Of a stretch of 64,000 nt of DNA, positions 15,413 through 30,844 are shown in pieces; positions within the stretch are counted from its first letter, which is position 1; every line of letters starts with the position of its first letter. The notes under the pieces were generated by a model that had not been told where the DNA came from, searched no databases, and worked only from the letters and a program-made list of their open reading frames with translations. Origin of the DNA: Thalassospira lucentensis (GTDB lineage: Bacteria > Pseudomonadota > Alphaproteobacteria > Rhodospirillales > Thalassospiraceae); contig NZ_CP136684.1 of NCBI RefSeq assembly GCF_032921865.1, positions 2,205,001-2,269,000 of the forward strand, given 5' to 3'. The position numbers and the translations under genes were made by a program.

Positions 15413-17002
15413 TTAAATGATGCCGATGGCGGCCCCGTCGCTACGTGGATCATGGGCACCGTCAACATTGCCGTCAGGCGCGATCCGGATGATGCCGGCC
15501 TGTCCGGCAAGGGCACTTTGTGCCTCTATCTCGCGCAGGATATGACCACGGTTTTTCAGTTCGGCAAATACGGTAGGTCCGGCGTCTGCTTCGAGTTTCA
15601 GGCTGTCACGCGAATCAGAAAATGTTTTCCCCAGAAGGAACCGCGGGCGGGCAAGGGCGTCAGCCGGGGATAATCCGAAATCAATCAATCTGGTCAACAG
15701 CATGGCCAGTGTCTGTGGTTGCCCGTCAGCACCCTGCGTTCCGTAAAGCAGGCAGGGTTTGCCGTTCCGCAAAGCCAGACCGGGGTTCAATGTATAAAAC
15801 GGTCGTTTGCCTGGTTTAAGCTGGTTGGGATGGCCGTCGATTGTGCTGAATGCCGCACCGCGATTTTGCCAGACAATGCCGGTATTGCCCGCGACTACGC
15901 CACTGCCCCAATCGAAATAGGTACTTTGCAGAACGCTGGCGCAATTACCCTGTGCGTCTGTTGCTGCAAGAAAAACAGTATCACCATGGCGGAATGGGTG
16001 CGGCCATTCCATTGCGTGATCTGTTGCAATATCGGCGGCATTTTTGCGCAGCGTGTCAGCTCCAAGCATATCGCTGAAATCAAGGTTCGTGCCGTCAGGA
16101 TCACAGATCCGATCACGTTCCAGAAAGGCGCGTTTGATGGCCTCTACCACCAGATGGAAATGGTCCGGATTGCTTTCATCCCAATACTTGGTCCCCAATT
16201 CACGCAGGATGCCCATGGTCATCAAGGTTGCCAACCCCTGCGTCGGTGCGGGCGGGGCAAACAGCGTAACGTTACCATATTCTAGCGAAACAGCATCTGC
16301 CGTCCGGGTGCGGGTCAATTGCAGATCGCGCGCCCGGATCGGAGAGCCGACCTTGCCAAGGCCCTTGGCAATCCGGGTAGCCAGTTCGCCTTCGTAAAAA
16401 TCGCGGGCACCATTTTTGGCAATCAGTTTCAGGCTCTCGGCAAGGTATGGCTGGATAAATGTGTCACCTGCTTTGGGGGTGCGGCCGTTCGGAGCAAAGA
16501 TATCGGCAAATCCCGGCCAGTTGCGGTAATCATCTTTTCGGAAATCCAGCCAGAAACATTGTGATTTGCTGACAGGAAAGCCATTTTCGGCCAGCGTAAT
16601 CGCCGGTTCGATCAGATCGGCAAGCTTGCGCGTTCCGCCCCAATTGCGCGCCGAATGATCAAGCGCGTGTTGCCAGCTATCGACCGTGCAGGCCGTGGTC
16701 AGGGTTGATGCCGGTCCGCGCAACGCAATGGGGACGCCCGCATCACATTTGGCATCAAGCGCGGCCTGTCCGATGCCAAGGAACGATGAAACCTTGCCGG
16801 TTCTGTCGGCAACCATCCAGACGGCATCGCCGCCGATGCCGCAAAAATGCGGATATGTCACGGCGAGAACCGATGCGGTGGCCACAACGGCCTCGATTGC
16901 GGTGCCGCCATCACGCAGGACCTGGGCGCCTGCCTCGCTGGCGGCGATACTCGGGCTTGTGACCATCGCGCGATAGGGTGTGGAAATGTTGGCAGCACTC
17001 AT
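15413..17002 (-). CDS. Gamma-glutamyltransferase-family Ntn hydrolase, probably cytoplasmic
   Basis: About 529 residues from ATG 17002. The family core is clear: SPSIAASEAGAQVLRDGGTAIEA, GIGGDAVWMV, and the small-subunit start around Thr342 (GDTVFLAATDAQGN), where autocleavage would expose the threonine nucleophile. No signal peptide is visible, whereas classical GGT is periplasmic, so it may act on a cytosolic gamma-glutamyl or other amide intermediate. It diverges from a GntR gene across a shared palindrome and ends at a terminator. The reaction (hydrolase or transferase) and substrate are not decided by sequence. Confidence 0.85.
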   Translation of the reverse strand: MSAANISTPYRAMVTSPSIAASEAGAQVLRDGGTAIEAVVATASVLAVTYPHFCGIGGDAVWMVADRTGKVSSFLGIGQAALDAKCDAGVPIALRGPASTLTTACTVDSWQHALDHSARNWGGTRKLADLIEPAITLAENGFPVSKSQCFWLDFRKDDYRNWPGFADIFAPNGRTPKAGDTFIQPYLAESLKLIAKNGARDFYEGELATRIAKGLGKVGSPIRARDLQLTRTRTADAVSLEYGNVTLFAPPAPTQGLATLMTMGILRELGTKYWDESNPDHFHLVVEAIKRAFLERDRICDPDGTNLDFSDMLGADTLRKNAADIATDHAMEWPHPFRHGDTVFLAATDAQGNCASVLQSTYFDWGSGVVAGNTGIVWQNRGAAFSTIDGHPNQLKPGKRPFYTLNPGLALRNGKPCLLYGTQGADGQPQTLAMLLTRLIDFGLSPADALARPRFLLGKTFSDSRDSLKLEADAGPTVFAELKNRGHILREIEAQSALAGQAGIIRIAPDGNVDGAHDPRSDGAAIGII

Positions 17003-17073
17003 ATCGGCGTCTTTCGTAATGGATGGTTGGGCTGGAAATGAACGATCAGATTGTGTGGATCGGCGGTGGCGCA

Positions 17074-17094
17074 ATTGCATGCAATCGACTATAC
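17074..17094. promoter_or_regulatory. Probable GntR operator, copy 1
   Basis: The perfect palindrome ATTGCATGCAAT (17074-17085) is followed five bases later by TATAC. It lies between the divergent starts of the gamma-glutamyltransferase-family gene (17002) and the GntR gene (17130). The identical 12-mer recurs at 18399-18410, upstream of the transporter operon. Confidence 0.65.
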
Positions 17095-17129
17095 AGAGTT
17101 GCATTCATCATCATTGTTGCCGGGATCTT

Positions 17130-17843
17130 ATGAAGGCTTCTGATAAAGCAAAGCATCGCAATGAACTGATCAGTTCGGCATTGCGGTCCGCCATTCTTGA
17201 ACGTGTTCTGCTGCCCGGTATGAAGCTGCCCGAAGATTCCCTTGGTGAACGGTTCGGCGTCAGTCGCACTTTGATCCGTCAGGCGCTTGAACGGCTTGCG
17301 GCCGAAGGGCTTGTGGAACTGCGGCGCAATCGAGGGGCGATGGTGGCCAAGCCAAGCCTTGAAGAAGCCCGCGATATATTCGAGTTGCGTACCCAGATCG
17401 AGGACCTTGTGATCAGCCGTGTGATCAAGGAAATGACCCCGGAAAAGCTTGCGGAACTTGAAGCCCATCTTGCCAAGGAAGTTGAAGCCGAACATGCGTC
17501 CGAGCCGATTTCGATCCGGCTTGCGACCGAGTTTCATATCCTTCTGGCAAAGCTGGCCGGAAGCCCGGTTTTGTTGCGTTACGTCGAAGAGATCGGCTAT
17601 CGCTGCGGACTGACATTGTCGCTTTATGCGCGGCCGCATTCCACCGATTGCGGCATTCAGGAACACCGCCAGATTATTGATGCCCTTGCTTGCGGGGACG
17701 AGGAAAAGGCGCGTGAGTTGATGCGATCGCATCTGACGGCGGTTGCTGACCGGGCGCTGATCACGCGCAAGGAAGCCGGGCCGCTTGTGTATCTTGATGC
17801 GCTTGAGCCCTATGCACGCAAAGTGCGTGACGGTCAGGAATAG
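17130..17843 (+). CDS. GntR-family regulator (FCD domain) of the liv/amidohydrolase locus
   Basis: About 237 residues. The winged-helix domain has LPEDSLGERFGVSRTLIRQALERLAAEGLVE, and the FCD domain includes LRTQIEDLVISRV and the ATEFHILLAKLAGSP metal/ligand segment. I choose ATG 17130 (MKASDKAKHRN), where homology begins; the 50 upstream open codons cover the operator and look non-coding. It diverges from the gamma-glutamyltransferase-family gene, and the shared 12-base palindrome suggests it controls its own promoter and that of the downstream transporter genes. Confidence 0.9.
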   Translation: MKASDKAKHRNELISSALRSAILERVLLPGMKLPEDSLGERFGVSRTLIRQALERLAAEGLVELRRNRGAMVAKPSLEEARDIFELRTQIEDLVISRVIKEMTPEKLAELEAHLAKEVEAEHASEPISIRLATEFHILLAKLAGSPVLLRYVEEIGYRCGLTLSLYARPHSTDCGIQEHRQIIDALACGDEEKARELMRSHLTAVADRALITRKEAGPLVYLDALEPYARKVRDGQE

Positions 17844-17889
17844 ACCGTCACACGGAGGTGCATCCGACCGTAAAAGCTGTGGCACCCGA

Positions 17890-18315
17890 TCAGGCCCTTG
17901 TACCCTGACGGATCAGAATGCGTTCCGCACTTTCGTTCCAGACATCCATTTTGACGATCTTGCCGTTACGAATGACAAAGCGGTCAACATAGCGGTTGCC
18001 GTCGAACGGTGTTCCATCCGGCCATTCGCCATATAGCGTGCCCACACTGTAAACCACGGTTTCGGTCTTTCCCGGTGCGACGTCGAACTGCCCGAACTTC
18101 TTTTTCACCCATTTATAACGTGCCGCGTTAAAGGCGGTTGTGCCCGACGGGTGGTCGTATTTGGCGCCGTCGGTAAACGTGATGACAACATCGTCCGACA
18201 TATAGGTCGCGGCCTTTTCCGGATCGGGCTTCATCGATGCGTCCAGAAAATCGCGCACAATCTGAGCGTCGGGTGACAATAGTTCCGGAGCATCCGGAGC
18301 AAGAGTGGCGGTCAT
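17890..18315 (-). CDS. SnoaL/NTF2-like protein
   Basis: A 141-residue protein with the cone-shaped NTF2/SnoaL pattern: an N-terminal helix (AQIVRDFLDASMKPDPEKAATYMSDDVVITF), a polar central part and final strands (NRYVDRFVIRNGKIVKMDVWNE). Members are small isomerases, hydrolases, dehydratases or ligand-binding proteins, so the fold does not define the reaction. A GAGG ribosome site precedes ATG 18315. It diverges from the binding-protein gene across the palindrome-rich region and is convergent with the GntR gene, so it is probably a member of the same regulon. Confidence 0.75.
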   Translation of the reverse strand: MTATLAPDAPELLSPDAQIVRDFLDASMKPDPEKAATYMSDDVVITFTDGAKYDHPSGTTAFNAARYKWVKKKFGQFDVAPGKTETVVYSVGTLYGEWPDGTPFDGNRYVDRFVIRNGKIVKMDVWNESAERILIRQGTRA

Positions 18316-18373
18316 CTTGTATCCTCGTTTCGTGCGATTGATCTTTGATCAGCATAATACGGCGGCAGATTTT

Positions 18374-18420
18374 TTGCATGCACTAATTTTATGCAATAAT
18401 TGCATGCAATTTGCGTATAC
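18374..18420. promoter_or_regulatory. Probable GntR operator cluster, copy 2
   Basis: The region contains TTGCATGCA (18375-18383), an ATGCAA half-site (18391-18396), the perfect palindrome ATTGCATGCAAT (18399-18410) and the palindrome GTATAC (18415-18420). It sits between the divergent SnoaL-like and binding-protein genes and shares its 12-base core with copy 1. Confidence 0.65.
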
Positions 18421-18553
18421 ATGAGGCAATCCAATTTGGGAGTCTGGGATGAAATCTGATAATGCATTGAATTAAAACGATTTTGATTCTTGGCACGTGG
18501 CTTGCTGCACTGCGAAGGCCAACAGGCACTTCAAAATAATCAGGGAGTCTCAC

Positions 18554-19744
18554 ATGTCTGTTTATTCGCCTATCCCGAAACTGACACGGCGTGCCGCGCT
18601 TTTGGGGGCAGCTGCTGTACTGATGCTTGCCAGCGCATTGCCGGTTACCGCTGTACGTGCCGAGGATACCGTGAAGCTTGGTCTTGTCGCAGCCCTGAGT
18701 GGCCAGTCGGCCAAGTCGGGTGAGGCCATCACGCGTGGCATTACCCTTGCGATTGACAAGATCAATGCCGAGGGTGGGGTCCTTGGCAAGCCATTGGAAC
18801 TTGTGTCGCGTGATGATGAAAGCAACCCGGGAAAGGGCCTTGTCGCGGCGCGTGAATTGGCGCAGCGCGAAAGGGTTGCTGCCCTGATCGGTGGTCTTGA
18901 TACGCCTGTATCGCTTGCCATAGTGCCGTTTGCCAATCAGCAGAAAATTCCGTTTGTCGGCCCGTGGGCGGCCGGTACGCCGATCACCAAAAACGGTGCG
19001 GAAGAAAACTATGTTTTCCGTGTCTCCGCCGTGGATGAATATGTCGACGAAGCGATCACCGAATATCTGGTCAAGAAATACGGTGCCAAAAAGCCGGGCA
19101 TGATCCTGATCAACAACCCGTGGGGGGAGTCCAATGAGAAGGGGCTTCTAAAGGCGCTAGAAAAACGCAGCATGCCCAATGCCGGGATTGAAAAGTTTGA
19201 ATCAAACGATGTTGATGTTGTCCCGCAGCTGACACGCCTTAAGGAAAACGGGGCAGATTCCCTGTTTGTGGTTGCCAACGTGGCCCCGACCGCACAGGTC
19301 GTTAAATCGCTTGATCGCATGGGCTGGGATGTTCCGATTTCATCGCATTGGGGGCCGGCTGGGGGTCGCTTTACCGAACTTGCCGGTGCCAGTGGCGAAA
19401 AGGTTCATTTCATCCAGACCTATCTCTTTACCGATGCCTCAAGCCCGATGTTTGTAAAGCTTCAGGAAAAATTCCCGGAAATCAAAACGCTGGCCGACGT
19501 TACCCCGGCAACCGGTATCGCCAATGCCTATGACGCGACCCTTTTGATTGCCGCAGCTATCGAAAAGGCTGGTTCGACCGAAGGCCCGGCTGTTCGGCAG
19601 GCAATGTACGAGATCAGCGGGATCGAAGGCATGATCAAAACCTATGACAAGCCTTTCACCCCGGATGATCAGGATGCGCTTGGTCCGGAAGACTACACCT
19701 TCGCGAAGTTTGTCGAAGGCGAAATCATTCCGATCACTGACTGA
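18554..19744 (+). CDS. Branched-chain-type ABC importer substrate-binding protein (LivJ/K class)
   Basis: About 396 residues from ATG 18554, preceded by a GGGAG ribosome site. The long N-terminal signal (RRAALLGAAAVLMLASALPVTAVRAE, cleavage after VRA) leads into a type I binding fold starting VKLGLVAALSGQSAKSG. LivJ-class proteins in proteobacteria bind amino acids, amides, urea or aromatic and heterocyclic compounds. The neighbouring cytosine-deaminase-like amidohydrolase and gamma-glutamyltransferase-family enzyme favour a nitrogen-containing amide or ring compound rather than leucine. A stable hairpin follows the gene. Confidence 0.92.
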   Translation: MSVYSPIPKLTRRAALLGAAAVLMLASALPVTAVRAEDTVKLGLVAALSGQSAKSGEAITRGITLAIDKINAEGGVLGKPLELVSRDDESNPGKGLVAARELAQRERVAALIGGLDTPVSLAIVPFANQQKIPFVGPWAAGTPITKNGAEENYVFRVSAVDEYVDEAITEYLVKKYGAKKPGMILINNPWGESNEKGLLKALEKRSMPNAGIEKFESNDVDVVPQLTRLKENGADSLFVVANVAPTAQVVKSLDRMGWDVPISSHWGPAGGRFTELAGASGEKVHFIQTYLFTDASSPMFVKLQEKFPEIKTLADVTPATGIANAYDATLLIAAAIEKAGSTEGPAVRQAMYEISGIEGMIKTYDKPFTPDDQDALGPEDYTFAKFVEGEIIPITD

Positions 19745-19751
19745 TTCCGAT

Positions 19752-19793
19752 TTTCCCTGCGGCCCTGCCTTACCTGTTGTGGCCGCAGGGAAA
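19752..19793 (+). terminator. Intercistronic hairpin after binding-protein gene
   Basis: A perfect 13-base inverted repeat, TTTCCCTGCGGCC (19752-19764) and GGCCGCAGGGAAA (19781-19793), with a 16-base loop. It starts eight bases after the stop codon. No T-run follows. It probably protects the upstream message or dampens read-through into the permease. Confidence 0.65.
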
Positions 19794-19837
19794 CCGCGCG
19801 CCATTTTGCTGCGGTTTCGTGCAAAGGATAGTTTGCA

Positions 19838-20713
19838 ATGACCTTGTTAATGGCCGCCCTTATTACCGGTATCGGTTTGGGCAGCATGTATGGCCTGATC
19901 GCGCTTGGCTTTCAGATCACTTATTCGGTTTCATCCAAAGTCAATTTTGCCCAAGGCAGCATGGTCATGCTTGGGGCTGTTTTGGGTTTTGTTTTCTGTC
20001 AGCAATATGGAATGCCGGTGATTTTGGGTTATCCGCTGGCAATTCTGTGCTGTGGCGTGATGGGGGTTCTTGTTGAATTTTTCCTTGTCCGTCCGTTTGC
20101 GGTTCGCAATTCCGAAGCGTGGCTGATGGCAACCGTGGCAGGCGGTATTTTGCTTGATAACGCGGTGCTGTTTACCTTCGGAAATGAACCCAGAACCTTG
20201 CCATCGGTTCTTGTGGAAGACAGCTGGAATATTCTTGGCACCGGGGTTTATCCGCAACAAATCCTGATCCCGATTGCAGCAATTGGTGTCGCATTGGGAT
20301 TGCATGCGCTGTTTCGTCATACCCGACAGGGCCGGGCGTTGCTGGCCGTTGTGCAAAACCAGACGGCGGCGAAGCTTATGGGGATCAACACCACGGTCAT
20401 GGTGACCGGATCCTTTGCCATATCATCAATGCTGGCCGGGTGTGCCGGACTTTTGATCGCACCGCTTTTTTCCGTGCATTCAGACATGGGAACGCTGTTT
20501 GGCCTGAAGGCTTTTGCTGTTGCCATTCTGGGCGGCATGACATCGGCTTATAGCGTTATGCTGGCCGGGTTCATCTATGGGATGGTCGAGGCCGCTGTGA
20601 CCACCTATCTCGGTTCGTCCTATACTTTCATCGTTGTCTTTGCACTGGTGATCGCGGTTCTGACGATCAAGCCAAGCGGCCTGTTTGGCCGTGCTGCCAT
20701 CAAGAAGGTGTAG
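19838..20713 (+). CDS. Branched-chain-type ABC importer permease (LivH class)
   Basis: A 291-residue LivH-type permease with about eight hydrophobic segments. Family features are GLGSMYGLIALGFQITYSVSSKVNFAQGSMVMLGA near the start and the conserved loop TRQGRALLAVVQNQTAAKLMGINT that contacts the ATPase. It is followed after two bases by the fused permease-ATPase gene, whose N-terminal domain is its LivM partner. Confidence 0.94.
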   Translation: MTLLMAALITGIGLGSMYGLIALGFQITYSVSSKVNFAQGSMVMLGAVLGFVFCQQYGMPVILGYPLAILCCGVMGVLVEFFLVRPFAVRNSEAWLMATVAGGILLDNAVLFTFGNEPRTLPSVLVEDSWNILGTGVYPQQILIPIAAIGVALGLHALFRHTRQGRALLAVVQNQTAAKLMGINTTVMVTGSFAISSMLAGCAGLLIAPLFSVHSDMGTLFGLKAFAVAILGGMTSAYSVMLAGFIYGMVEAAVTTYLGSSYTFIVVFALVIAVLTIKPSGLFGRAAIKKV

Positions 20714-20715
20714 GG

Positions 20716-23271
20716 ATGAAACTGCCCGTGAAATTCAAAAATCCGATCCCGAAACTGAACAAGCCGGTAGCACTCGACAGCGTCATTGTTGCTGCGATGG
20801 CCGGGGGACTTGTCGCCGTATTGTTCACTGGCGGCTATACGCAGTTCATTATCGGGCTGGTGGCGATGACCGTCATTCTGACGGTGGGCCTGAACGTGCT
20901 TTATGGTCTGACCGGGCTGGTCTCGCTAGGGCAGGTTGGCTTCTTTGCCATCGGGGCCTATGCCAGTGCGATCCTGACGCTTGCCGGGCTTAACTTCTGG
21001 GTCAGTTTGCTGGCGGCCACCATCATTGGCGGGATTGCCGGATGTTTATTGGCGATTTCGGCCGTGCGGATGGCAGGGCCATTTCTGGCAATGGTCACGA
21101 TTGCCTTTGCCTTTATCGTTGAACATGGCGCGATTGAATGGCGTGACCTGACCGGCGGGCAAAACGGTTTGATGGGTTTCCCGATGCCGCAGATCGGATC
21201 ATATGTTTTTTCTGAACGTGATCTGGTCATGCTGTGTGTGTTGCTCGGCGGCATTGCACTTCTGGCATTCCGGCGTCTGGCGGTTAGTGGCTGGGGCATG
21301 GCAATGACCAGCATGCGGGATGCGGAAATCGCTGCAAGTTCGCTTGGTTATAATGCCTTTGTGGTCAAGGCATCGGGCTTTGCCATTGCGGCGGCAATGG
21401 CCGGATTAGCGGGGGCGTTGTTTGCACCGTTGATGATGTTTATCGCACCGTCAAACTTCCCGCTCAGCCAATCCATCCTGTATCTGTTTGCGGTTATTCT
21501 GGGCGGGGCCGGAACCGTTCTGGGGCCGTTGGTTGGGGCGTCTGTTTCCGTCCTGCTGCCGGAGCTGCTTTCGGACTTCGCCGAATACCGGTTGCTGATT
21601 TTCGGTGCACTTCTTGTTGCGGTTCTGCTGATTGCGCCGCGCGGCATTGTCGGCACGATTGCCCGTTTCATACCGCTGGCGCGGCAGAAGGTGACACCGG
21701 TTCCCCCCGAAAAGATCGAAGCCGGGCTGGCCGATTATCCCAAATCCGATGGTTTGCTGGTCGATGATGTATCGATTGCCTTTGGTGGTGTTAAGGCAGT
21801 TAATCAGGTGTCCTTCACGGCCCGACCGGGGCAGGTGACATCAATCATTGGGCCGAATGGTGCCGGTAAAACGACGTTACTGAACATCATCAGCGGGTTT
21901 TACAAACCGACCGAGGGAGCCGTTCGCATCGGTGATCGTGATATCGCAGGCAAGGCTACCGATTTTGCCGCGCGTAACGGCATTGCACGCACCTATCAGG
22001 CGACCCGTTTGTTTGAAAACATGTCGGTGGTCGACAATGTGATTGCGGGCATTTCATTGGGCCGGTTCGGGGCGCCATTTTCACGTATCGCATCGGATGA
22101 AAATCGCAATTTCGCAGCGGGGCTTTTACAGTTTTGCGGATATCTTGGTGATCCTGATGCACGTGCGGGTGATTTGCCACATGTGGATCGGCGTCTGGTC
22201 GAAATCGCCCGCTCGCTTGCGACCAAGCCCGGAGTCCTTCTGCTTGATGAACCGGCCGCGGGTTTGATGCATGCCGACAAGGTTGCACTTGCCAAATTGC
22301 TGCGCAAGCTGGCGGATGCCGGGATTGCGGTGGTTCTGGTCGAACATGACATGGAAATGGTCATGGGCATTTCGGACCTGATACTGGCGGTTGATGCCGG
22401 AACACCGATTGCCCTTGGCAATCCGCAGGACGTTCAGAAAAATCCGCGTGTCATCGCCGCCTACCTTGGCGATGGCAACAGCAAGGCGCATCCAAGACCG
22501 ACACCACTTGTGACCAGCGAAACACCGGTTATCGCGTCACTGCGATTGACGGCCGGTTATGGGGCGGCCCCGGTATTGAAGTCGGTGGATATCAAGGTCC
22601 GGCAGGGGGAAATGGTGGCGTTGCTTGGGGCCAATGGGGCAGGAAAATCGACCTTCCTGATGGCGCTTTCGGGATTGCTGCGCCCTGTTTCAGGCAGCAT
22701 CATTCTGAATGACGAATATATCCATAATCTGGCGCCACATCAGATCGTCGAACAGGGACTGGTCCTTGTGCCCGAAGGACGGCAGGTTTTCCCCGAACTG
22801 ACGGTGCGTGAAAACATCGAACTGGGGGCTTACAAACAACCCAAACCGGTCAACCGTGACGAACTTGAAGCCATCCTGACCCGTTTCCCGCGACTGCGTG
22901 ACAGGATCAACAGTCAGGCTGGTCTTCTGTCGGGGGGGGAACAGCAGATGATGGCCATCGCGCGCGGACTTGTGGCCAAACCGAAGGCGTTGCTTCTGGA
23001 TGAGCCATCCCTTGGTCTGGCCCCAGCCATGGTCGAAGAACTTTATACCATTCTGGGTGAATTACGCGATGACGGGGTCACGATCCTTCTGGTGGATCAG
23101 ATGGCGACCATGGCGCTGTCGGTTGCCGATTATGCCTATGTCCTTGAACAGGGACAGGTCGTTGCCGAAGGCAGCGCCAAAGATCTTCTGAAAGATGAAC
23201 GATTGATTGATGCGTATCTCGGTGGTGCGGATCAGTCCAAAAATGAAAAGGTGATCAGCGAGCATGCTTGA
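20716..23271 (+). CDS. Fused LivM permease - LivG ATPase - LivF ATPase
   Basis: This 851-residue protein joins three normally separate subunits. Residues 1-325 are a LivM-type permease (GLNVLYGLTGLVSLGQVGFFAIGAYA; loop MTSMRDAEIAASSLGY). Residues about 346-590 are a LivG ATPase with Walker A 379-386 and Walker B VLLLDE 507-512. Residues about 605-835 are a LivF ATPase with Walker A 638-645 and signature LSGGE 738-742. The first ATPase has LPHVDRR at 487-493 where an LS(Y/G)G-type signature is expected. No frameshift or stop interrupts the reading frame. It overlaps the amidohydrolase gene by 8 bases. Confidence 0.93.
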   Translation: MKLPVKFKNPIPKLNKPVALDSVIVAAMAGGLVAVLFTGGYTQFIIGLVAMTVILTVGLNVLYGLTGLVSLGQVGFFAIGAYASAILTLAGLNFWVSLLAATIIGGIAGCLLAISAVRMAGPFLAMVTIAFAFIVEHGAIEWRDLTGGQNGLMGFPMPQIGSYVFSERDLVMLCVLLGGIALLAFRRLAVSGWGMAMTSMRDAEIAASSLGYNAFVVKASGFAIAAAMAGLAGALFAPLMMFIAPSNFPLSQSILYLFAVILGGAGTVLGPLVGASVSVLLPELLSDFAEYRLLIFGALLVAVLLIAPRGIVGTIARFIPLARQKVTPVPPEKIEAGLADYPKSDGLLVDDVSIAFGGVKAVNQVSFTARPGQVTSIIGPNGAGKTTLLNIISGFYKPTEGAVRIGDRDIAGKATDFAARNGIARTYQATRLFENMSVVDNVIAGISLGRFGAPFSRIASDENRNFAAGLLQFCGYLGDPDARAGDLPHVDRRLVEIARSLATKPGVLLLDEPAAGLMHADKVALAKLLRKLADAGIAVVLVEHDMEMVMGISDLILAVDAGTPIALGNPQDVQKNPRVIAAYLGDGNSKAHPRPTPLVTSETPVIASLRLTAGYGAAPVLKSVDIKVRQGEMVALLGANGAGKSTFLMALSGLLRPVSGSIILNDEYIHNLAPHQIVEQGLVLVPEGRQVFPELTVRENIELGAYKQPKPVNRDELEAILTRFPRLRDRINSQAGLLSGGEQQMMAIARGLVAKPKALLLDEPSLGLAPAMVEELYTILGELRDDGVTILLVDQMATMALSVADYAYVLEQGQVVAEGSAKDLLKDERLIDAYLGGADQSKNEKVISEHA

Positions 23272-24484
23272 TTATGTGGTTAGGAACGCCTGCCTGCATG
23301 GCGAAACCGGTCTTCTTGATATTGTGATAAAGGATGGAATAATCGCCGGTATTGCGGCATCGATTGCGAGCGAGGCACCGTCCTTTGACGCCGGTGGCAA
23401 TCTTCTGACCGGTGGTTTTGTTGAAAGTCACCTGCATCTCGACAAGGCCTGCATTCTTGATCGTGCCAAAAACGAAAGCGGTACGTTGCAAGGCGCAATA
23501 AGTGCTGTTGCAAAGGCCAAAAGCGGCTTTACCGAAGATGATGTTTATGCCCGCGGGGCGAAAGTCATTGAGAAAGCCGTCACACAGGGTACGAACGCCA
23601 TCCGGACCCATGTTGAAATCGATCCGGGTATCGGTTTGGCCGGCTTTCGGGCGATCAAACGCCTGAAGCACGACTATGCATGGGCGATGGATGTCGAGAT
23701 TTGCGTTTTCCCGCAGGAAGGTCTTCTGAATTATCCGGGGACCGAGGAGCTTCTGCGTGAAGCACTTGATAACGGTGCGGACCTTTTGGGGGGCTGCCCC
23801 TATATGGATAGCGATCCGGTCGGACAGATCAAACGCCTGTTTGAAATGGCGCGCGATTATGATGTCGATCTGGATTTTCATCTGGATTTCGATCTCGACC
23901 CGACATGGCGACATCTGGATGAAGTCGCGCGTCAGACGATTGCCTTTGGCTGGCAAGGGCGCGTGATGATTGGTCATGTGACCAAATTGTCCGTCCTGCC
24001 CAAGGATCAATTGGCTAATACAACCGCCCTGATGCGACAGGCCGGGATTGGGTTGACGGTGTTGCCATCGACTGATCTTTTCCTGACCGGACGTAATTGC
24101 GAACATTCGGTCCCGCGGGGTGTCGCCCCGGCGCACAGTCTGGTGCGTGCGGGTGTGTGCTGTACCATCGCAACCAACAATGTCCTGAACCCGTTCACGC
24201 CGTTCGGGGATTGCTCGTTATCACGGATGGCAAATCTTTATGCCAATGTCAGTCAGCTGAGCACGACCGAGGAACTTGAAATGTGCTTTGCGATGGTTGC
24301 CGATAGCCCGGCAAAGCTTCTGGGGCGGCCAACCGAAATCATGATTGGCGGGGCTGCGACCTTTATTGCATTACCTGCGCAAAGCCGGGCACAGGTGGTT
24401 TCCGAAATCAGTCGCCCGGTCTGGGGCATGAAGGATGGACGGGTAACGTTCGAACATCCGGCGCCAAGATTGCTGCATCCATAA
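23264..24484 (+). CDS. Cytosine-deaminase-like amidohydrolase with altered active site
   Basis: A 406-residue amidohydrolase close in layout to cytosine deaminase and AtzC-like enzymes. Metal-site histidines are kept: His56/His58 (HLHLDK), His206 (FHLDF) and His238 (IGHVTK). The usual HxDE glutamate is Phe209, and the strand-8 aspartate region, DDVFDP in E. coli CodA as I recall it, reads NNVLNP (Asn305-306). Canonical hydrolytic deamination may therefore be changed, or a sister subfamily may use other residues. It overlaps the transporter fusion by 8 bases, so its substrate is probably the imported compound. Confidence 0.85.
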   Translation: MLDYVVRNACLHGETGLLDIVIKDGIIAGIAASIASEAPSFDAGGNLLTGGFVESHLHLDKACILDRAKNESGTLQGAISAVAKAKSGFTEDDVYARGAKVIEKAVTQGTNAIRTHVEIDPGIGLAGFRAIKRLKHDYAWAMDVEICVFPQEGLLNYPGTEELLREALDNGADLLGGCPYMDSDPVGQIKRLFEMARDYDVDLDFHLDFDLDPTWRHLDEVARQTIAFGWQGRVMIGHVTKLSVLPKDQLANTTALMRQAGIGLTVLPSTDLFLTGRNCEHSVPRGVAPAHSLVRAGVCCTIATNNVLNPFTPFGDCSLSRMANLYANVSQLSTTEELEMCFAMVADSPAKLLGRPTEIMIGGAATFIALPAQSRAQVVSEISRPVWGMKDGRVTFEHPAPRLLHP

Positions 24485-24497
24485 AGATGCAGCAATC
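24468..24497. terminator. Perfect hairpin at the convergent gene ends
   Basis: GATTGCTGCATC (24468-24479) and GATGCAGCAATC (24486-24497) form a 12-base perfect stem with a six-base loop. It overlaps the last codons of both the amidohydrolase and the histidine kinase genes. There is no long T-run on either side, so it may slow polymerase or stabilise both 3' ends. Confidence 0.5.
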
Positions 24498-25794
24498 ACG
24501 CGTCTGAAAGGGTGAAAATTGCGCGCATGCCGCCAGAGGCAAGGAAAGCTGTCTCGCAATGCCAGTTGCAGCGTTCGCAAATACTGCGCACCAGATGCAG
24601 GCCGATGCCTTCACCCTGATCGCGGGCGCAATCCCCGGCACAGGTCATCAGGTTGTTTTCGACAACCAGTTTGTTGGCCTCAAGCCGGACCGTAACCTGC
24701 CCTTTGGGCGTATGTTCGAACGCATTACGGATCAGGTTGGATACGACAATCATCAGCGCTGCAGGTGATGCTTCGATCTCGCCGCTTTCTGCGTCAGCAC
24801 TGAATTCACATGTCAGATTCTTGCCGTCGGTCAGATAGGCAAGATCAACGATGGCCTCGCGCACGAAAGCCGGATAGTCGATCTTTTCGTGTATGCCGTT
24901 AGGCGTTGCTTCGCGCCCGAGCCAAAGCAGGGTTTCAATCAGTTGCTGCATATTGCGGTTGGCGCGTTTGATCCGTGCGGCCAGACGAACCTGAATTTCG
25001 TTTAACGGTGTTTTATCAAGCAGTTCAACATTGCCGCTGACAATCGTTACCGGGGTTCGCAGTTCATGACTGGCCTGACGCAGGAATTCGCGTTCGCGTG
25101 TCACGAACCTGTCGACCCTTACCAGTGACTGATGCAGTTCGCTGGCGACATCATTCAGTTCGGTAAAGCCAAAATCGGGTACCGGTTGGTCAAGGTTTTC
25201 GGGTGACAGGGTTTTCGCCCAGCTTTGCAGGTTTTCAGATGGCTGCGTCATGCGTTTGCCGATCAGCCAAAGCACATAGGCAAATATCGCCATAACTCCG
25301 AGTGCAAACGGGATGGAAAGAAGGGCCAGTTTGTGAAGGCGCGCAAAATAGACGCTGTCTTCATCTCCCGCGTGATAGGTCTGTAGCAGCATGATCTGCG
25401 TGCCGTCGGCAAGAATATGGGGGAACACCAGAAAGACCGGATTATCCGGATCTTTTTGCGCAGCATATTTATCGGTGTTCAGATAATAAAGCTCGCCCGG
25501 ATCGATATCTTGGGGTTTGTAGCGGTTGCGCAGAAGCTCCGGCAATTCGTTGTAGTCTGTAAAGGTCTGAATGTTAAAGCCATTGGGAAGCGGGGCGGTT
25601 GGGTCATTGCTGCGCATTTCATCATATTGATCGGCAATGGTCTGTAGCTGGAAACTCGCGACCATCCATTTGCCATACAGCATGTAGAAATTAACGACAC
25701 CGGTATAGATCACCAGTGTAATGACAAGTGCCAGCAAAACGTAGTTCCGCACAAAGCGGGAAAAAGTTTTCTGGATTGGTGCGCAGGAATGCAT
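24496..25794 (-). CDS. Membrane sensor histidine kinase
   Basis: A 432-residue kinase with two membrane segments (about 16-36 and 156-178) flanking a periplasmic sensor domain, then a HAMP-like linker. The dimerisation helix has His243 in RQASHELRTPVTIVSG. The ATPase domain has an N-box (VVSNLIRNAFEH, 352-361) and a G2 box (GEGIGLHLV, 394-402). The usual G1 DxGxG is not recognisable between them (ENNLMTCAGDC), and the catalytic domain is short. It follows its response regulator after five bases. The signal is unknown; position after the molybdenum hydroxylase genes suggests a link. Confidence 0.9.
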   Translation of the reverse strand: MHSCAPIQKTFSRFVRNYVLLALVITLVIYTGVVNFYMLYGKWMVASFQLQTIADQYDEMRSNDPTAPLPNGFNIQTFTDYNELPELLRNRYKPQDIDPGELYYLNTDKYAAQKDPDNPVFLVFPHILADGTQIMLLQTYHAGDEDSVYFARLHKLALLSIPFALGVMAIFAYVLWLIGKRMTQPSENLQSWAKTLSPENLDQPVPDFGFTELNDVASELHQSLVRVDRFVTREREFLRQASHELRTPVTIVSGNVELLDKTPLNEIQVRLAARIKRANRNMQQLIETLLWLGREATPNGIHEKIDYPAFVREAIVDLAYLTDGKNLTCEFSADAESGEIEASPAALMIVVSNLIRNAFEHTPKGQVTVRLEANKLVVENNLMTCAGDCARDQGEGIGLHLVRSICERCNWHCETAFLASGGMRAIFTLSDA

Positions 25795-25799
25795 TTCTT

Positions 25800-26480
25800 T
25801 TACTCGCGAAGGGCCACGCCCTGGCCGGCAACTGTATGTATCAGGTTTTGATCGAATGGTTTGTCGATGCGCATTCGCAATTTGTAAAGATGCGTTTTAA
25901 GCGCATTGGTATCTGGCGGATCGCCCTGCCACAATGCCATCGACAATCGTGACCGTGTCACGACATGCGGACTGTTCTGGGCAAGAACTTCCAGAATGGT
26001 CCAGCTTGTCGGGGAGAGATTGATTGCCTGTCCGGATCGCGCAACATGTCTGTTTTCAAAATCAACGATCAGATCGCCAAGCGAAAAGCGCCGGATTTCG
26101 CCACTGCGGCGGCGCGACAGAACCCTTGTACGCATCAGAAGTTCTTCAAGCGCAAAAGGTTTGACCAGATAATCATCCGCCCCGGCACTGAAACCTTCAA
26201 GTTTGTCTGCGAGTGTATCGCGCGCTGTCAGCATTAGAACCGGGGTGTCGATCCCCTCGTTGCGCAAGGCGTTGCAGATGCTGATGCCATCGCGAAACGG
26301 CAACATGATATCAAGCAATATCACATCATATTCGCCAGTCAGTGCGCGCTGAAAACCCGTTTCCCCATCAAAGGCGTGATCGCATTCGATGCCTTCTATT
26401 GTCAGGTAATCGCTTATTGTTCCGGCAATATCCATGTTGTCCTCGACCAGAAGGACCATGATGTTGGCGGTTGTTTTCAT
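25800..26480 (-). CDS. OmpR-family response regulator
   Basis: About 226 residues from ATG 26480. The receiver domain has the acidic pocket LLVEDN and phosphoacceptor Asp57 (VILLDIMLP), with the switch lysine in LVKPF. The C-terminal winged helix ends LKTHLYKLRMRIDKPF, typical of OmpR/PhoB regulators. It is transcribed with the kinase that follows. A longer reading to 26582 overlaps the mocA-like gene and lacks family similarity. Confidence 0.92.
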   Translation of the reverse strand: MKTTANIMVLLVEDNMDIAGTISDYLTIEGIECDHAFDGETGFQRALTGEYDVILLDIMLPFRDGISICNALRNEGIDTPVLMLTARDTLADKLEGFSAGADDYLVKPFALEELLMRTRVLSRRRSGEIRRFSLGDLIVDFENRHVARSGQAINLSPTSWTILEVLAQNSPHVVTRSRLSMALWQGDPPDTNALKTHLYKLRMRIDKPFDQNLIHTVAGQGVALRE

Positions 26481-26553
26481 ATGTTTGTGGTTCCGGTTTC
26501 GGCGGTTTTGCCAGATGCTGAAGATACCAGATTGCCCTAAAAGCGGTGAAAGG

Positions 26554-27147
26554 TCAGCCCGGTTCGAAAAGCCGGTTGGCAAACAGTTTCAGATCATCCT
26601 GAGTGTCGATGTCGAACGCTGCATTTGGCATGGCGATCGCACTGATATCGTGACTGCTGCTATTGAGCACCTGTTGTGCGCCGCGGGCGCCGTCCAACTT
26701 GGAAAGTTCCGGGAAATATGCGGCTGGAAACAGGGCGGGGACGCCGTTCATTTCCTTATACCGGGATGCTATGACGTGGCTTCCGTCAAAGGCATTCAGA
26801 AGTTTCTGATAGTCATTTCTGGTCAAGCCGACCTGATCCGCAAGGGCGATCAGGAGGCCGTCATACGTACCGGCTGCGCAAATTCCGGCAATGCCTGCTG
26901 CAATCGATGATCCCATACCGGATTGCCAGTTGTCGTTGGCGATGGTTTTTGCGCGATTGCCGATCACCGAAAGGATTTCATCGCGAAATGCACCCAGCAC
27001 GACATAAAGATCATCGTTGAAAATGGGGCGAAGCTGATCAATGGCGTGTTCCAGCATCGGCTTGCCATTGATATCGGCAAGCTGTTTGCGTCCGCCAAAT
27101 CGTGTGCTTTCACCCGCTGCAACGATAAGACCGGCAATTTTCATCAT
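26554..27147 (-). CDS. MocA-like molybdenum cofactor cytidylyltransferase
   Basis: A 197-residue nucleotidyltransferase. The N-terminal loop LIVAAGESTRFGGRKQL binds the nucleotide, and ALADQVGLT holds the metal-binding aspartate. MocA attaches CMP to molybdopterin, giving the cytosine dinucleotide cofactor used by xanthine-oxidase-family hydroxylases. Start options at 27147 and 27144 overlap the XdhC stop. With XdhC and the hydroxylase subunits upstream it forms the maturation part of this operon. Confidence 0.87.
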   Translation of the reverse strand: MMKIAGLIVAAGESTRFGGRKQLADINGKPMLEHAIDQLRPIFNDDLYVVLGAFRDEILSVIGNRAKTIANDNWQSGMGSSIAAGIAGICAAGTYDGLLIALADQVGLTRNDYQKLLNAFDGSHVIASRYKEMNGVPALFPAAYFPELSKLDGARGAQQVLNSSSHDISAIAMPNAAFDIDTQDDLKLFANRLFEPG

Positions 27148-28139
27148 TCAGCCGCCTGAGCGAGTGCCGGGGCGGCATCAAGTTTGTAAAGTGCGACATG
27201 AATACCCGATAACATTGAAAGTGCGATGCTTTCGGGCAGTTGTCCGCCAATATCGATCCCGGCGGGGCTGGCTACCGGGAAGGGCAGGGCAGGCTCGGCA
27301 ATTTCCGCACGTTCAAGAACATCGACAAAACGATGCCGCGGACCCAGCATGGAAACATGACGCAACTGGCTGGATTTCAGAATCTGAAGCGCCTTGGCAT
27401 CGATATCAATGCTGTGCGACATCAGGATTGCCGTATCGACGCGATGTTGCGCAACATAATCAACCAATGTTGTGTCGATCTGACGCAGGATGGTGCCTGC
27501 CTTGGGGAAATGTTCGGGGCGGGCATTCGCTGGGCGCGGGTCAACCAATGTGGTTTTCCAGCCCATTTCATGTGCGATGGAAACCACAGGCCGCGCATCC
27601 AATCCACCCCCGACGATCAGGATGTGGGGTTCAGGCACAATCGGGGTTACAAGCCAGTCACCATCAGACCGGTTTTCGATATAGCCGGTGCGCTGGCCGG
27701 TATGGTCCGCACGTTTGAAATATCCGCGGGTATCGCCGACTTTCTGAAAATACAGACCGCTTTGGCGCACCATCAAAGCATCGCAAAGATCGGAAAGCCC
27801 AAGGTCGTTTGCGTGGTCAAGGGGTTGCAGCATGATGAATACCTTGCCGCCGCAACCAACGCCCAGCCGGAAAGACAGGTCGTCTTCGTCATTGCCGTCA
27901 TAGACAAGCATGACCGTTTTGTTGGTTACCATGGCGCGCCGGGCGTTGCGGATAATATCGGCTTCAAGGCAGCCGCCGCTCAGTAGGCCAAACTGCTGGC
28001 CATTCCCGTTAATCAGCATCATGGCCCCGGCCTTGCGATAGGCCGAACCCTCGGTGCGATAAACCGTACCCAAAACCCATTCGGTATCTGTCTTGTTTTC
28101 CTGCCAGACGCGTAGCATGGCCGATAACTGGTTACTCAT
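27144..28139 (-). CDS. XdhC/CoxI-family molybdoenzyme maturation factor
   Basis: About 331 residues from ATG 28139. An N-terminal XdhC domain (GTVYRTEGSAYRKAGAMMLI, LSGGCLEADI) and a C-terminal Rossmann domain (HILIVGGGLDARPVVSIAHEMGW) match the XdhC family. XdhC proteins receive molybdenum cofactor, help its sulfuration and load it into hydroxylases. Its position between the large subunit and MocA fits a dedicated maturation role. Confidence 0.93.
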   Translation of the reverse strand: MSNQLSAMLRVWQENKTDTEWVLGTVYRTEGSAYRKAGAMMLINGNGQQFGLLSGGCLEADIIRNARRAMVTNKTVMLVYDGNDEDDLSFRLGVGCGGKVFIMLQPLDHANDLGLSDLCDALMVRQSGLYFQKVGDTRGYFKRADHTGQRTGYIENRSDGDWLVTPIVPEPHILIVGGGLDARPVVSIAHEMGWKTTLVDPRPANARPEHFPKAGTILRQIDTTLVDYVAQHRVDTAILMSHSIDIDAKALQILKSSQLRHVSMLGPRHRFVDVLERAEIAEPALPFPVASPAGIDIGGQLPESIALSMLSGIHVALYKLDAAPALAQAAE

Positions 28140-28162
28140 GATGTGCTCCCGCAAAAGGGGCT

Positions 28163-28202
28163 GCCCGGGGGACGGGTGGGGACCCGAAAATGCCCCCCGG
28201 GC
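28163..28202 (-). terminator. GC-rich hairpin between large subunit and XdhC genes
   Basis: GCCCGGGGG (28163-28171) and CCCCCGGGC (28194-28202) pair perfectly, with a smaller GGGT/ACCC stem inside the loop. It fills the gap between the hydroxylase stop and the XdhC ribosome site. No T-run follows, so it probably tunes the ratio of enzyme to maturation factors rather than ending transcription. Confidence 0.5.
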
Positions 28203-28210
28203 AACATGCC

Positions 28211-30379
28211 TTACACGAAGTCGAAACCGGCTTTGGTCATCGGAAGATCCGTGATCCGTTTTCCGGTCTTGCCAAATATGGCGTTGGCAACAGCCGGAGC
28301 GGTCGGGGGGACGCCCGGTTCGCCAACGCCCGTAGGGGCATTGTTCGATTGAACAATTGCCACTTCGATGGCAGGCATTTCGGCATTTCGAAGCAGTTCG
28401 TAATCCGGGAAGTTGAACTGGTCGACTTCACCATCCGTCAGGGTGATTTCGTTGCGGAAGGCGGCACATAATGCGTAACCAGCACCGCCTTCCATCTGTG
28501 CGCGGATGACATCGGGGTTAACAGCTACCCCGCATTCAACCGCCATGAACAGTTTGTTCACATGCACACTGGTGTCCTCGACCGTGACGTCGGCAACAAC
28601 CGCAACGCAGGTATTGAACGAAAGGTGCGCGGCAAAACCACGTTTGTCGCCCTTTTCCCATCCGGATATCTCGCGGACAAGCTTGATGGCTTCGATCATG
28701 CGGGCCTGATTGGTGCCTGCCGGATCAAGCATCGCAAGGCGCATTTCGATCGGGTCCTGCCCCGTTTCGGTTGCGAGCATATCCATCAGTGTTTCCATGA
28801 CATATCCGGTGTGGGTATGTCCCACCGAACGCCACCACAATATGGGGGTCGGGGTCTGGAAGTCGCTTAACCCGATGCCATGGTTGGGGATGGTATAAAG
28901 ACTTTCGGTGACACCCTCGACCGATGTCGGGTCGATGCCATCCTGTACCATGCCTTCCATCGGCCCACCCTTCATGATGGATTTGACAGCCATCCGGTGA
29001 TCCCAGCCAATAATCTTGCCATCACTATCCAGACCGATTTTTGCCCGGTGTACGGCCATCGGGCGGTAATAACCGCCGCGAATATCGTCCTCGCGGCTCC
29101 AGACCAGTTTGACCGGAACCTTGCGGCCCGAAACGGCAAAGGCCATGGCGGCTTCGACATTATAGTCGGAGGCGCCGTTGGCACGACGACCGAACGAACC
29201 GCCGGCATAAAGCGTTCTGATCTCGACCTGTGACGGTTCCAGTCCAAGGGCGGCTGCGACCATTGGGCGGGTCAGGGTCGGGAACTGGCAGCCATCATGG
29301 AGGCGAACGCCATTTTCGGTCGGCTCGATGATGCAGTTTTCCGGTTCCAGCGGGGCGTGAGCCAGGAACGGGAAGGTGAATTCTGCATCAATGGTTTTGG
29401 TGGCATTGGCCAGAAGCGGTTCAACGGATGCCAGCGGCACTTCGTGATTGGCGTCAAACTGCGGCGCATCAAGCAGTACCTTGTGATCGGCAATCATGGC
29501 ATCCGTGCTGCGTGTTTCGGCCTGGCTGAAATCCCATTCAACAGAAAGGGCATCACGTGCCTGAAACGCAGCCCAGGTGTTTTTGCCAAACGCCACAACT
29601 CCTGCCTTGTTCGGCAGAATTTGTGCAGCAATGAACCCTGCAACATCTTTGGACGCAGTGTCGTCAAAGGAGGTGACGGTGCCACCGAATTTCGGGCTGC
29701 GCATGATCGCGGCATAGATCATGCCCGGCAGATTGACATCCATCGCAAAGATTGCGGTGCCGTTCGTCTTGTCGGTGTTGTCCTTGCGATGCAGTTTGTC
29801 GCTGCCAATCAGCTTGAACTGATCCGGGGTTTTAACGGTTGGTTTTTCAACCGCCTCAAGGGTTGCTGCAATCGCGACAAATTCTCCGAAATGACCGGAA
29901 TTGCCACCGGATTTCAGCATGCCGTTTTCAACGGTGATGCTGCTGGCATCGACACCCCAGTTCTGGGCAGCCGCACGGACCAGAAGATCACGCGCTGCAG
30001 CACCGGCTTCGCGATATTGCATGAAGGAATTGGCGATGGATGTTGAGCCACCGGTTCCCTGTGCATGGAAGAACAGGTTGGCATAACGTTCATTATCGGC
30101 AGGGGCGAATGCCGTCTGAACCGTGTCCCAGTCAGCGCCGAGTTCCTCGGCAACCAGTGTCGTCAGGCCGGTTGTGGTGCCCTGACCCATTTCGAAATGT
30201 TTGATGATGACGGTTACCGTGCCATCGGCATCGATTTTGACAAACGGGTTAAGGTCGGTTGCGGCAGCCACACCGCTGCCTGCTGCAAGAACGCCTTTGG
30301 CATTGACGCCGACCAGAAGGGCGGCGGTACCGGCGGCTGATCCGATCATGAAGCCGCGACGTGATACATTGATTGTCAT
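28211..30379 (-). CDS. Periplasmic molybdenum hydroxylase large subunit (IorB-type)
   Basis: A 722-residue protein of the xanthine oxidase superfamily, closest in layout to the beta subunit of isoquinoline 1-oxidoreductase. A twin-arginine signal (SRRGFMIGSAAG) exports the folded enzyme. Cofactor-binding landmarks include EMGQGTTTGL, QGTGGSTSIANS and GGSFGRR. The base-catalyst glutamate lies in TGVGEPGVPP near the C terminus. Substrates of this group are N-heterocycles or aldehydes. No FAD or cytochrome subunit is encoded nearby, so the electron acceptor is unclear. Confidence 0.9.
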   Translation of the reverse strand: MTINVSRRGFMIGSAAGTAALLVGVNAKGVLAAGSGVAAATDLNPFVKIDADGTVTVIIKHFEMGQGTTTGLTTLVAEELGADWDTVQTAFAPADNERYANLFFHAQGTGGSTSIANSFMQYREAGAAARDLLVRAAAQNWGVDASSITVENGMLKSGGNSGHFGEFVAIAATLEAVEKPTVKTPDQFKLIGSDKLHRKDNTDKTNGTAIFAMDVNLPGMIYAAIMRSPKFGGTVTSFDDTASKDVAGFIAAQILPNKAGVVAFGKNTWAAFQARDALSVEWDFSQAETRSTDAMIADHKVLLDAPQFDANHEVPLASVEPLLANATKTIDAEFTFPFLAHAPLEPENCIIEPTENGVRLHDGCQFPTLTRPMVAAALGLEPSQVEIRTLYAGGSFGRRANGASDYNVEAAMAFAVSGRKVPVKLVWSREDDIRGGYYRPMAVHRAKIGLDSDGKIIGWDHRMAVKSIMKGGPMEGMVQDGIDPTSVEGVTESLYTIPNHGIGLSDFQTPTPILWWRSVGHTHTGYVMETLMDMLATETGQDPIEMRLAMLDPAGTNQARMIEAIKLVREISGWEKGDKRGFAAHLSFNTCVAVVADVTVEDTSVHVNKLFMAVECGVAVNPDVIRAQMEGGAGYALCAAFRNEITLTDGEVDQFNFPDYELLRNAEMPAIEVAIVQSNNAPTGVGEPGVPPTAPAVANAIFGKTGKRITDLPMTKAGFDFV

Positions 30380-30382
30380 GAC

Positions 30383-30844
30383 TTATGCCTCCAGCTTTTC
30401 AGACGCCAGTTTGATGGCTTCGTTGATGCGTACATAGGTCACACAACGGCACGCATTGCCGTACATGTATTCCTTGATTTCATCGTCCGTCGGTTTCGGA
30501 TTCTCGGTCAGAAGGCCGATGGCCGACATGATCTGTCCGGATTGACACCAGCCACATTGTACGACGTCCTTTTCGCGCCATGCGGCCTGAACCGCTTGGG
30601 CGATCTTGTCGGTTGCGCCTTCAATCGTCGTGATTTCACTGTCGACAGCGTCTTCAATAAAGGTCTGGCAGGAACGGGTCGGGTACCCGTCAATGTGAAC
30701 GGTACAGGCGCCGCAATAGGCAACGCCACATCCAAACTTGGTGCCGGTAAGTTCCAGTCCGTCACGCAGAACCCATAATAGCGGGGTGCCAGGTTCTGCT
30801 TCGACGGTACGGGATTCTCCGTTTATTTTTAGCTGATACTGCAT
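30383..30844 (-). CDS. Two-cluster [2Fe-2S] subunit of the molybdenum hydroxylase
   Basis: A 153-residue iron-sulfur subunit. Cys39, Cys44, Cys47 and Cys59 bind the plant-type cluster. Cys97, Cys100, Cys132 and Cys134 bind the second cluster, in which the usual CRCGTY reads CRCVTY. The start is ATG 30844; a longer reading to 31114 overlaps the neighbouring kinase gene and is not family-like. It has no signal peptide and should be carried across the membrane with the Tat-signalled large subunit, whose gene starts four bases downstream. Confidence 0.93.
   Translation of the reverse strand: MQYQLKINGESRTVEAEPGTPLLWVLRDGLELTGTKFGCGVAYCGACTVHIDGYPTRSCQTFIEDAVDSEITTIEGATDKIAQAVQAAWREKDVVQCGWCQSGQIMSAIGLLTENPKPTDDEIKEYMYGNACRCVTYVRINEAIKLASEKLEA

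Follow-up and report, generated by a model that had tools for sequence, protein, structure and literature searches.

Gene content of the locus

We analyzed a 64,000-nucleotide stretch of the Thalassospira lucentensis genome (assembly GCF_032921865.1, contig NZ_CP136684.1; hereafter the window), focusing on a putative catabolic regulon at positions 15413–24484. This region includes seven genes, encoding a protein with the fold of gamma-glutamyltransferases (GGT) on the minus strand, a GntR/FCD regulator on the plus strand, a SnoaL_2 protein on the minus strand, and then, all on the plus strand, a substrate-binding protein (SBP), a LivH-like permease, a LivM-LivG-LivF fusion, and an amidohydrolase-superfamily protein (AMH), these last four apparently forming one operon (Table 1). 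An original prediction, made from the sequence alone, had named a GGT-family enzyme, a GntR regulator, a SnoaL-like protein, a fused ABC importer, and an amidohydrolase; the list of open reading frames (ORFs), Pfam, and NCBIfam placed all of these at the coordinates it gave, each with Pfam support. The AMH gene start overlaps the fusion gene by 8 bp, the next long ORF 3′ of it (24496–25794) runs in the opposite direction, and AMH is 99% identical to the amidohydrolase of T. lucentensis MCCC 1A02072.

Table 1 Features of the locus, in window coordinates
Feature	Coordinates	Strand	Evidence
GGT-fold (N-terminal nucleophile, Ntn, hydrolase) putative amidase, HpxW-like, 529 aa	15413..17002	-	Pfam PF01019 375 bits; 5hft alignment; tree and pocket residues
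Operator 1, perfect 12-bp palindrome ATTGCATGCAAT, between GGT and GntR	17074..17085		Pattern scans, relatives
GntR/FCD transcriptional regulator, 237 aa	17130..17843	+	Pfam GntR 60 bits, FCD 84 bits
SnoaL_2/NTF2-like protein, 141 aa	17890..18315	-	Pfam SnoaL_2 29.5 bits; kin to SnoaL half of PDB 9mua
Operator 2 array, 13-bp spacing: TTTGCATGCACT 18373, ATTTTATGCAAT 18386, ATTGCATGCAAT 18399	18373..18410		Pattern scans, relatives
SBP, branched-chain-amino-acid/amide (HAAT) type	18554..19744	+	Pfam Peripla_BP_6 190 bits; PDB relatives
LivH/UrtB-like permease	19838..20713	+	Pfam BPD_transp_2 132 bits; NCBIfam
LivM-LivG-LivF triple fusion, permease and two ATPases, 851 aa	20716..23271	+	Pfam, NCBIfam
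AMH, 406 aa, Asn305-Asn306 subfamily	23264..24484	+	Pfam Amidohydro_3 83 bits; alignments

A shared operator-like palindrome in the seven-gene locus

The 4,733,519-base genome contains just two exact copies of the palindrome ATTGCATGCAAT, at positions 17074–17085 and 18399–18410 of the window, against none of the reversed control pattern; one copy lies in each divergent intergenic region of the locus (GGT/GntR and SnoaL/SBP). With one mismatch allowed, 15 genomic sites were found, including both exact copies, versus 2 for the control pattern; 13 one-mismatch copies thus lie elsewhere in the genome, e.g., at G000:C2:2161220. With two mismatches, the window contained 8 sites versus 7.4 expected by chance, so that only the exact copies stand out numerically. 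In the SnoaL–SBP region, three copies follow each other at 13-bp spacing, the first two (18373 and 18386) with two mismatches each, and these two are credible because the spacing is conserved in relatives rather than because of copy number. A TATACA element lies on the plus strand 3′ of both perfect copies, 4 bp after operator 1 and 5 bp after the last copy of operator 2. The first ATG of the GGT ORF (17104) lies upstream of operator 1, and since a frame from this ATG would run through the operator, the GGT start is better set at 17002.

We then looked for the 10-bp core TTGCATGCAA in 15 of the 18 Thalassospira-type loci (L049–L066; L-numbers designate the loci compared) and in 19 loci outside the genus (18 of L067–L089 and L026), the stretches scanned varying with gene order. 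On the SnoaL side, the core was exact in all 15 Thalassospira-type loci, and on the GGT–GntR side it was exact in nine and within one mismatch in six. Outside the genus, it was exact in 4 of the 19 loci (Roseibium, Labrenzia, SC52, and Rhizobium straminoryzae), within one mismatch in six more, and not found in the other nine scanned. The Labrenzia locus (L068) carries triple operator copies with identical spacing, while that of R. straminoryzae (L087) has the exact 12-mer between a gene for a 50%-identical GntR protein and a divergent AMH paralogue–GGT–AMH run. As for the regulator itself, it scored below the cut-off of all 25 NCBIfam models inspected among the 27 that matched it.

Taken together, the restriction of exact operator copies to this locus and the footprint of the operator in relatives indicate that the seven genes almost certainly constitute one co-regulated unit, as had been predicted. 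The prediction of an identical palindrome shared by three transcripts held for the palindrome, with its two genome-unique exact copies, and had to be revised for the transcripts, as the two divergent regions could serve four transcription starts (GGT, GntR, SnoaL, and the SBP operon).

Conservation of the gene set across genomes

Locus contents were counted from tblastn matches, because simple gene calls in high-GC loci contain wrong-strand ORFs. Among 29 Thalassospira genomes, orthologues of AMH (≥79% identity) and of the GGT-fold enzyme (≥75%) were present in the same 21 and absent from the same 8, a pattern that reflects few independent events because these genomes are related. The whole seven-gene set was contiguous in 20 of the 21 loci, window included. 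The remaining locus, from T. alkalitolerans, retains GGT, GntR, SnoaL, and AMH genes; its three transporter genes are absent, and no SBP match was found genome-wide at E ≤ 1e-90.

A GTDB-wide AMH scan yielded 42 loci, i.e., 18 of the Thalassospira type (one titled as a Rhodospirillales metagenome-assembled genome), 23 others (L067–L089), and L090, a 35% match over 74 residues that was excluded from the following counts. Among the 23 loci outside Thalassospira, 16 included a SnoaL gene, nine a GGT gene (41–58% identity), eight the same transporter, and seven an NMT1/SsuC-type transporter in its place; for comparison, the chance of any GGT gene falling in a 21-kb locus is ~3% (7 PF01019 genes in 4.73 Mb, from 8 matches). 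Related sets with swapped transporters were found in Azospirillum, Agrobacterium, Bradyrhizobium, and others. GGT, GntR, SnoaL, and AMH genes occur together in Azospirillum (L086 and L099), Agrobacterium (L092), and Rhizobium oryzicola (L082), with an NMT1/SsuC-type transporter in L086, L092, and L099. Pseudomonas and Stutzerimonas loci (L078, L083–L085) combine SnoaL, transporter, AMH, and a GGT, and a Cupriavidus locus (L097) has the same transporter followed by a GGT, with no AMH orthologue found in its 21 kb. These partial sets, along with the whole Thalassospira loci, contradict the possibility, raised in the original prediction as grounds for refutation, that the genes are never together in relatives.

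Two neighborhoods were recorded in passing. In R. oryzicola, the set adjoins two genes resembling histidine utilization genes (L082:3638–6356), HutI-like and HutF-like as judged from motifs. Downstream of the locus, window positions 24496–33734 encode MobA-like and XdhC proteins and a molybdenum hydroxylase subunit, as well as, by inspection, a sensor kinase and a response regulator; homologues of these ORFs likewise lie 3′ of AMH in T. alkalitolerans.

An amidohydrolase subfamily with an Asn pair

AMH aligns over almost its full length with cytosine deaminase, in which we take Glu217 and Asp313 (both catalytic) and Asp314 to be the relevant residues by E. coli numbering. These are replaced by Phe209, Asn305, and Asn306, respectively, in all AMH orthologue matches, so that the description of this amidohydrolase as atypical proved apt. 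Specifically, all 67 matches (≥45% identity, loci L026–L100, several Thalassospira genomes being counted twice) had H, H, K, Q, H, F, H, N, and N at positions 56, 58, 61, 151, 206, 209, 238, 305, and 306. One of the short peptide patterns behind the GTDB scan spans the Asn pair and thereby favors finding it; the pair is also present in six plasmid orthologues from a whole-protein search (L026, L027, L028, L092, L098, and L099). By comparison, all six paralogue matches (25–31% identity) retain Asp305, one of them (L098) combining Phe with Asp. Eight positions (His56, His58, Lys61, Gln151, His206, His238, Asn305, and Asn306) did not vary in any of 26 alignment rows, the most distant being 48% identical, and this conservation suggests that the metal site is functional. 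AMH scored below the NCBIfam cytosine deaminase cut-offs (205.1 vs 438, 202.4 vs 403, and 173.2 vs 483). On these alignments, AMH is a distinct, Asn-type amidohydrolase subfamily.

A GGT-fold enzyme without the gamma-glutamyl pocket

The GGT-fold protein scored 304.8 bits against the NCBIfam GGT model, below its cut-off of 357.85, and had no signal peptide by inspection. Among the solved relatives listed, the two chains of PDB 5HFT combined (189 and 166 bits) outscored any other entry; we take 5HFT to be HpxW, the Klebsiella oxamate amidohydrolase. By alignment, the nucleophile is Thr342 (in GDTVFL), which pairs with the residue that opens chain B of 5hft; the autoprocessing Thr is thus present. 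Arg114, Asp433, Ser462, and Ser463, which we assume to be the gamma-glutamyl contacts of E. coli GGT, align with Ile, Ala, Tyr, and Thr. With these contacts missing and the score under the NCBIfam cut-off, we rejected canonical gamma-glutamyl chemistry.

In a 25-row tree of GGT-fold proteins (midpoint-rooted, with several long branches), the window enzyme falls in an 11-row clade (100/99) within a 14-row clade (96/97), with HpxW outside. The GGT proteins of L078, L083, and L085, three of the four Pseudomonas/Stutzerimonas loci, join the window enzyme in a supported clade. Those of SC52 (36% identity) and Novosphingobium (40%) were rejected as orthologues, as they group, weakly (80/0), with another paralogue of the source genome. 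Among the proteins compared here, HpxW is by sequence the nearest characterized relative, and we read the window protein as a putative Ntn amide hydrolase of its own specificity. Of the predicted GGT-family amidase, the fold, here without the gamma-glutamyl pocket residues, was borne out.

One locus may illustrate a substitution for this enzyme. In L126, whose 18 kb yielded no GGT, an amidase-signature ORF lies immediately 3′ of AMH, with a possible 4-bp overlap if a TTG start is used. It is 42% identical to the amidase of L098, itself over its NCBIfam cut-off, and would fit a role in replacing the GGT as linear-amide hydrolase. Separately, c11 as a simple replacement of the GGT was dropped, since L089 carries both.

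The SnoaL-like protein and its relatives

The SnoaL-like protein exceeded the gathering cut-off of Pfam SnoaL_2 (PF12680; 29.5 vs 27 bits), and its sole strong solved relative in the PDB is the second half of 9mua. In a Sulfitobacter relative (L096), Pfam Tautomerase and SnoaL_2 domains share a single chain; by analogy, 9mua is probably a 4-OT plus SnoaL protein, with the 4-OT domain in its first 58 residues. No paper on 9mua was found in an open-licence literature search. Membership in AtzH/DUF3225 was rejected, as neither was among the Pfam matches at 1e-3, and a profile of the window SnoaL family matched eight PDB sequences (E ≤ 1) that included no AtzH chain.

Relatives on plasmids are found near a dihydropyrimidinase ~4 kb away (L091), a PuuE-like deacetylase (L094 and L095), an AtzD-family ring-opening enzyme scoring over its NCBIfam cut-off (L095), or an amidohydrolase (L026, L092, L099, and L100), and HyuA/HyuB are encoded near the L096 relative. 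A 57%-identical relative on a Salmonella plasmid lies directly 3′ of yiiM, annotated as 6-hydroxyaminopurine reductase (L093:8273–9369). Among 29 plasmid records, 18 label these proteins just "nuclear transport factor 2 family protein". Across 150 genomes of the order of the source genome, a SnoaL relative was detected in 24, including 12 outside Thalassospira; two of these 12 loci had AMH, and five encoded HyuAB or two PuuE-like proteins plus an isochorismatase-type protein.

Loci L128, L129, L130, L134, L136, and L096 all share this last arrangement, with four of the five order-level loci also encoding a LeuC homologue, an ICL/PEP-mutase lyase, and a TRAP SBP. Such sets look like a route from a cyclic imide via an alkylmaleate to an alkylmalate, for which both the substrate and the order are guesses.

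The transporter

The 851-aa fusion combines a BPD_transp_2 domain (residues 44–304) with two ABC_tran stretches (Pfam). The SBP has a Tat-like signal (RRAALLG), by inspection, and scored 76.3 bits against the NCBIfam Liv binding-protein model, whose cut-off is 477; no ligand could be read from its sequence. In L126, SnoaL and AMH are separated by a LivG-tail/LivF chain (L126:9221–10267) that appears to be what is left of the fused transporter.

A candidate pathway and its alternatives

We propose that the locus is a GntR-repressed regulon through which the cell would draw nitrogen, and perhaps also carbon, from a small cyclic amide (an imide, a ureide, or a lactam). We hold this chemistry to be plausible, at somewhat under an even chance, mainly because a ring opener, a linear amidase, and SnoaL recur together. 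The periplasmic SBP would capture the compound, and the LivH and LivM-LivG-LivF transporter would import it. In the cytosol, the Asn305-type AMH would attack the ring, which we take as ring opening, and the SnoaL-like protein may isomerize or tautomerize the ring substrate or the opened product. The HpxW-like Ntn hydrolase would then cleave the resulting linear amide to ammonium and an acid. Meanwhile, the GntR/FCD protein would stay bound to ATTGCATGCAAT between GGT and GntR and between SnoaL and SBP until the compound or a product lifts repression. The catabolic role, the substrate, the order of steps, and the role of SnoaL as an isomerase are inferred from family knowledge and gene context.

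The same genes could serve the catabolism of an aminated N-heterocycle of the oxopurine, pterin, pyrimidine, triazine, or creatinine type, in which AMH would be an exocyclic amino deaminase and the GGT-fold enzyme would cleave an oxamate-like end product. That the closest solved relatives of AMH are cytosine deaminases and AtzC is consistent with this, as is the second amidohydrolase with an intact Asp in L080, L087, and L027, in the latter case beside a gene annotated as 8-oxoguanine deaminase. Some related loci also include an NMT1/THI5-type binding protein (Pfam), a BMP-type binding protein (L075 and L068, by inspection, with no NCBIfam name), or a c44 amidohydrolase whose best NCBIfam matches, both far below cut-off, are N-ethylammeline chlorohydrolase and 8-oxoguanine deaminase, and the title of one paper places HpxW in uric acid breakdown. 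However, both carboxylates that cytosine deaminase uses for catalysis, Glu217 and Asp313, are replaced in every one of the 67 AMH orthologue matches, and the partners of SnoaL-family proteins in loci without AMH include ring-opening cyclic-amide hydrolases, so we regard a deamination route as rather unlikely.

The loss of the equivalents of this Asp (position 305) and Glu (position 209) would also be expected if AMH were a catalytically dead scaffold or sensor, leaving all chemistry to the GGT-fold enzyme, and the Cupriavidus locus with its transporter and GGT points the same way. Yet the eight positions invariant in all alignment rows, and the retention of the enzymes in T. alkalitolerans where the transporter was lost, make a dead AMH improbable. 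Finally, pathways with gamma-glutamylated amines provide a precedent for a route in which gamma-glutamylation of an amine is followed by removal of the glutamate by the GGT, in line with the assignment of the protein to the GGT fold by both Pfam and NCBIfam. This is highly improbable given the missing gamma-glutamyl-binding residues, the score below the NCBIfam GGT cut-off, and the lack of any gamma-glutamyl ligase among the seven genes (Pfam, NCBIfam).

Several observations weigh against the cyclic-amide proposal. Most directly, AMH lacks the catalytic Asp and Glu of cytosine deaminase (Asn and Phe instead, with HxH and His present), so hydrolysis itself is not assured. Outside Thalassospira, a GGT lies nearby in only 9 of the 23 AMH loci, and seven (L070, L074, L075, L080, L087, L088, and L089) have AMH without SnoaL. 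The Pseudomonas and Stutzerimonas sets include a GntR protein of only 34–35% identity, and no operator match was found in the three of these four loci that were scanned. A promoter scan returned two sites versus 1.1 expected, without the TATACA element among them, so the promoters can be placed only tentatively. As for the SnoaL partners, HyuA/HyuB of L096 fall under the caprolactamase cut-offs, the PuuE-like protein is under the NCBIfam PuuE cut-off (79.6 vs 424.6) and, in L094, had no Pfam family match, and no ring hydrolase is adjacent to the Salmonella relative. Five of the 12 order-level SnoaL loci showed a weak match at most to the labeled partners, three of these stretches being truncated by contig ends.

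Read jointly and more broadly, the regulon would be a widespread and so far undescribed cyclic imide or ureide pathway, the AMH subfamily would work with Asn-Asn in place of the catalytic Asp of its superfamily, and the SnoaL protein would belong to a family of cyclic-amide isomerases, one that turns up beside no fewer than three unrelated ring openers and, in Sulfitobacter, as a fusion with a 4-OT tautomerase. This combined reading is possible, albeit doubtful as a whole. If correct, the cyclic-amide proposal would add an unassigned nitrogen-scavenging route to Proteobacteria and point to a function for an NTF2-fold family currently named only generically in plasmid records. The locus also offers a defined operator for testing, and AMH, as a natural subfamily, asks whether the strand-8 Asp is dispensable. 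No paper describing the gene set, the operator, or the Asn-type amidohydrolase was found among the titles listed in searches of the open-licence literature, which omits most subscription papers; on this weak basis, the families being already known, what may be new is the combination of enzymes in a GntR-controlled catabolic regulon.

Comparison with known systems

The transporter has the same parts as LivFGHMK/UrtABCDE (HAAT) importers, namely an SBP, two permease domains, and two ATPase domains, but LivM, LivG, and LivF are joined here in one chain, and the SBP falls far under the LivJ/LivK-type and UrtA cut-offs. For the SnoaL-like protein, the second half of the "Tautomerase" 9mua/9mup is homologous to residues 8–128 (E 2.6e-31), whereas the window protein lacks the Tautomerase domain. 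AtzH (DUF3225, NTF2 superfamily) is described in PMC6219798 as a decarboxylating amidohydrolase of cyanuric acid breakdown and, like the window SnoaL protein, as a small NTF2-superfamily protein in a nitrogen-heterocycle operon; unlike it, the window protein matches SnoaL_2 and no AtzH-like model.

HpxW, an oxamate amidohydrolase according to a citing text, shares with the window enzyme the motifs WQNRGAAFS, PF[HY]TLNP, YG..G.DGQPQT, and RPR.LLG.T and, like it, lacks the canonical gamma-glutamyl contacts of GGT. Besides its place outside the 14-row clade, it differs at the Ser462 and Gly484 equivalents, where its His and Gly correspond to Tyr and Ala in the window enzyme; a paralogue in the same genome (G000:C2:4178292) has the His and Gly of HpxW. 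Lastly, cytosine deaminase and AtzC are homologous to AMH over their whole length (4r7w, E 1.7e-44; 2qt3, E 8.9e-34) and have their HxH, later His residues, and Gln conserved in it, the Asn pair and Phe209 setting AMH apart from cytosine deaminase.

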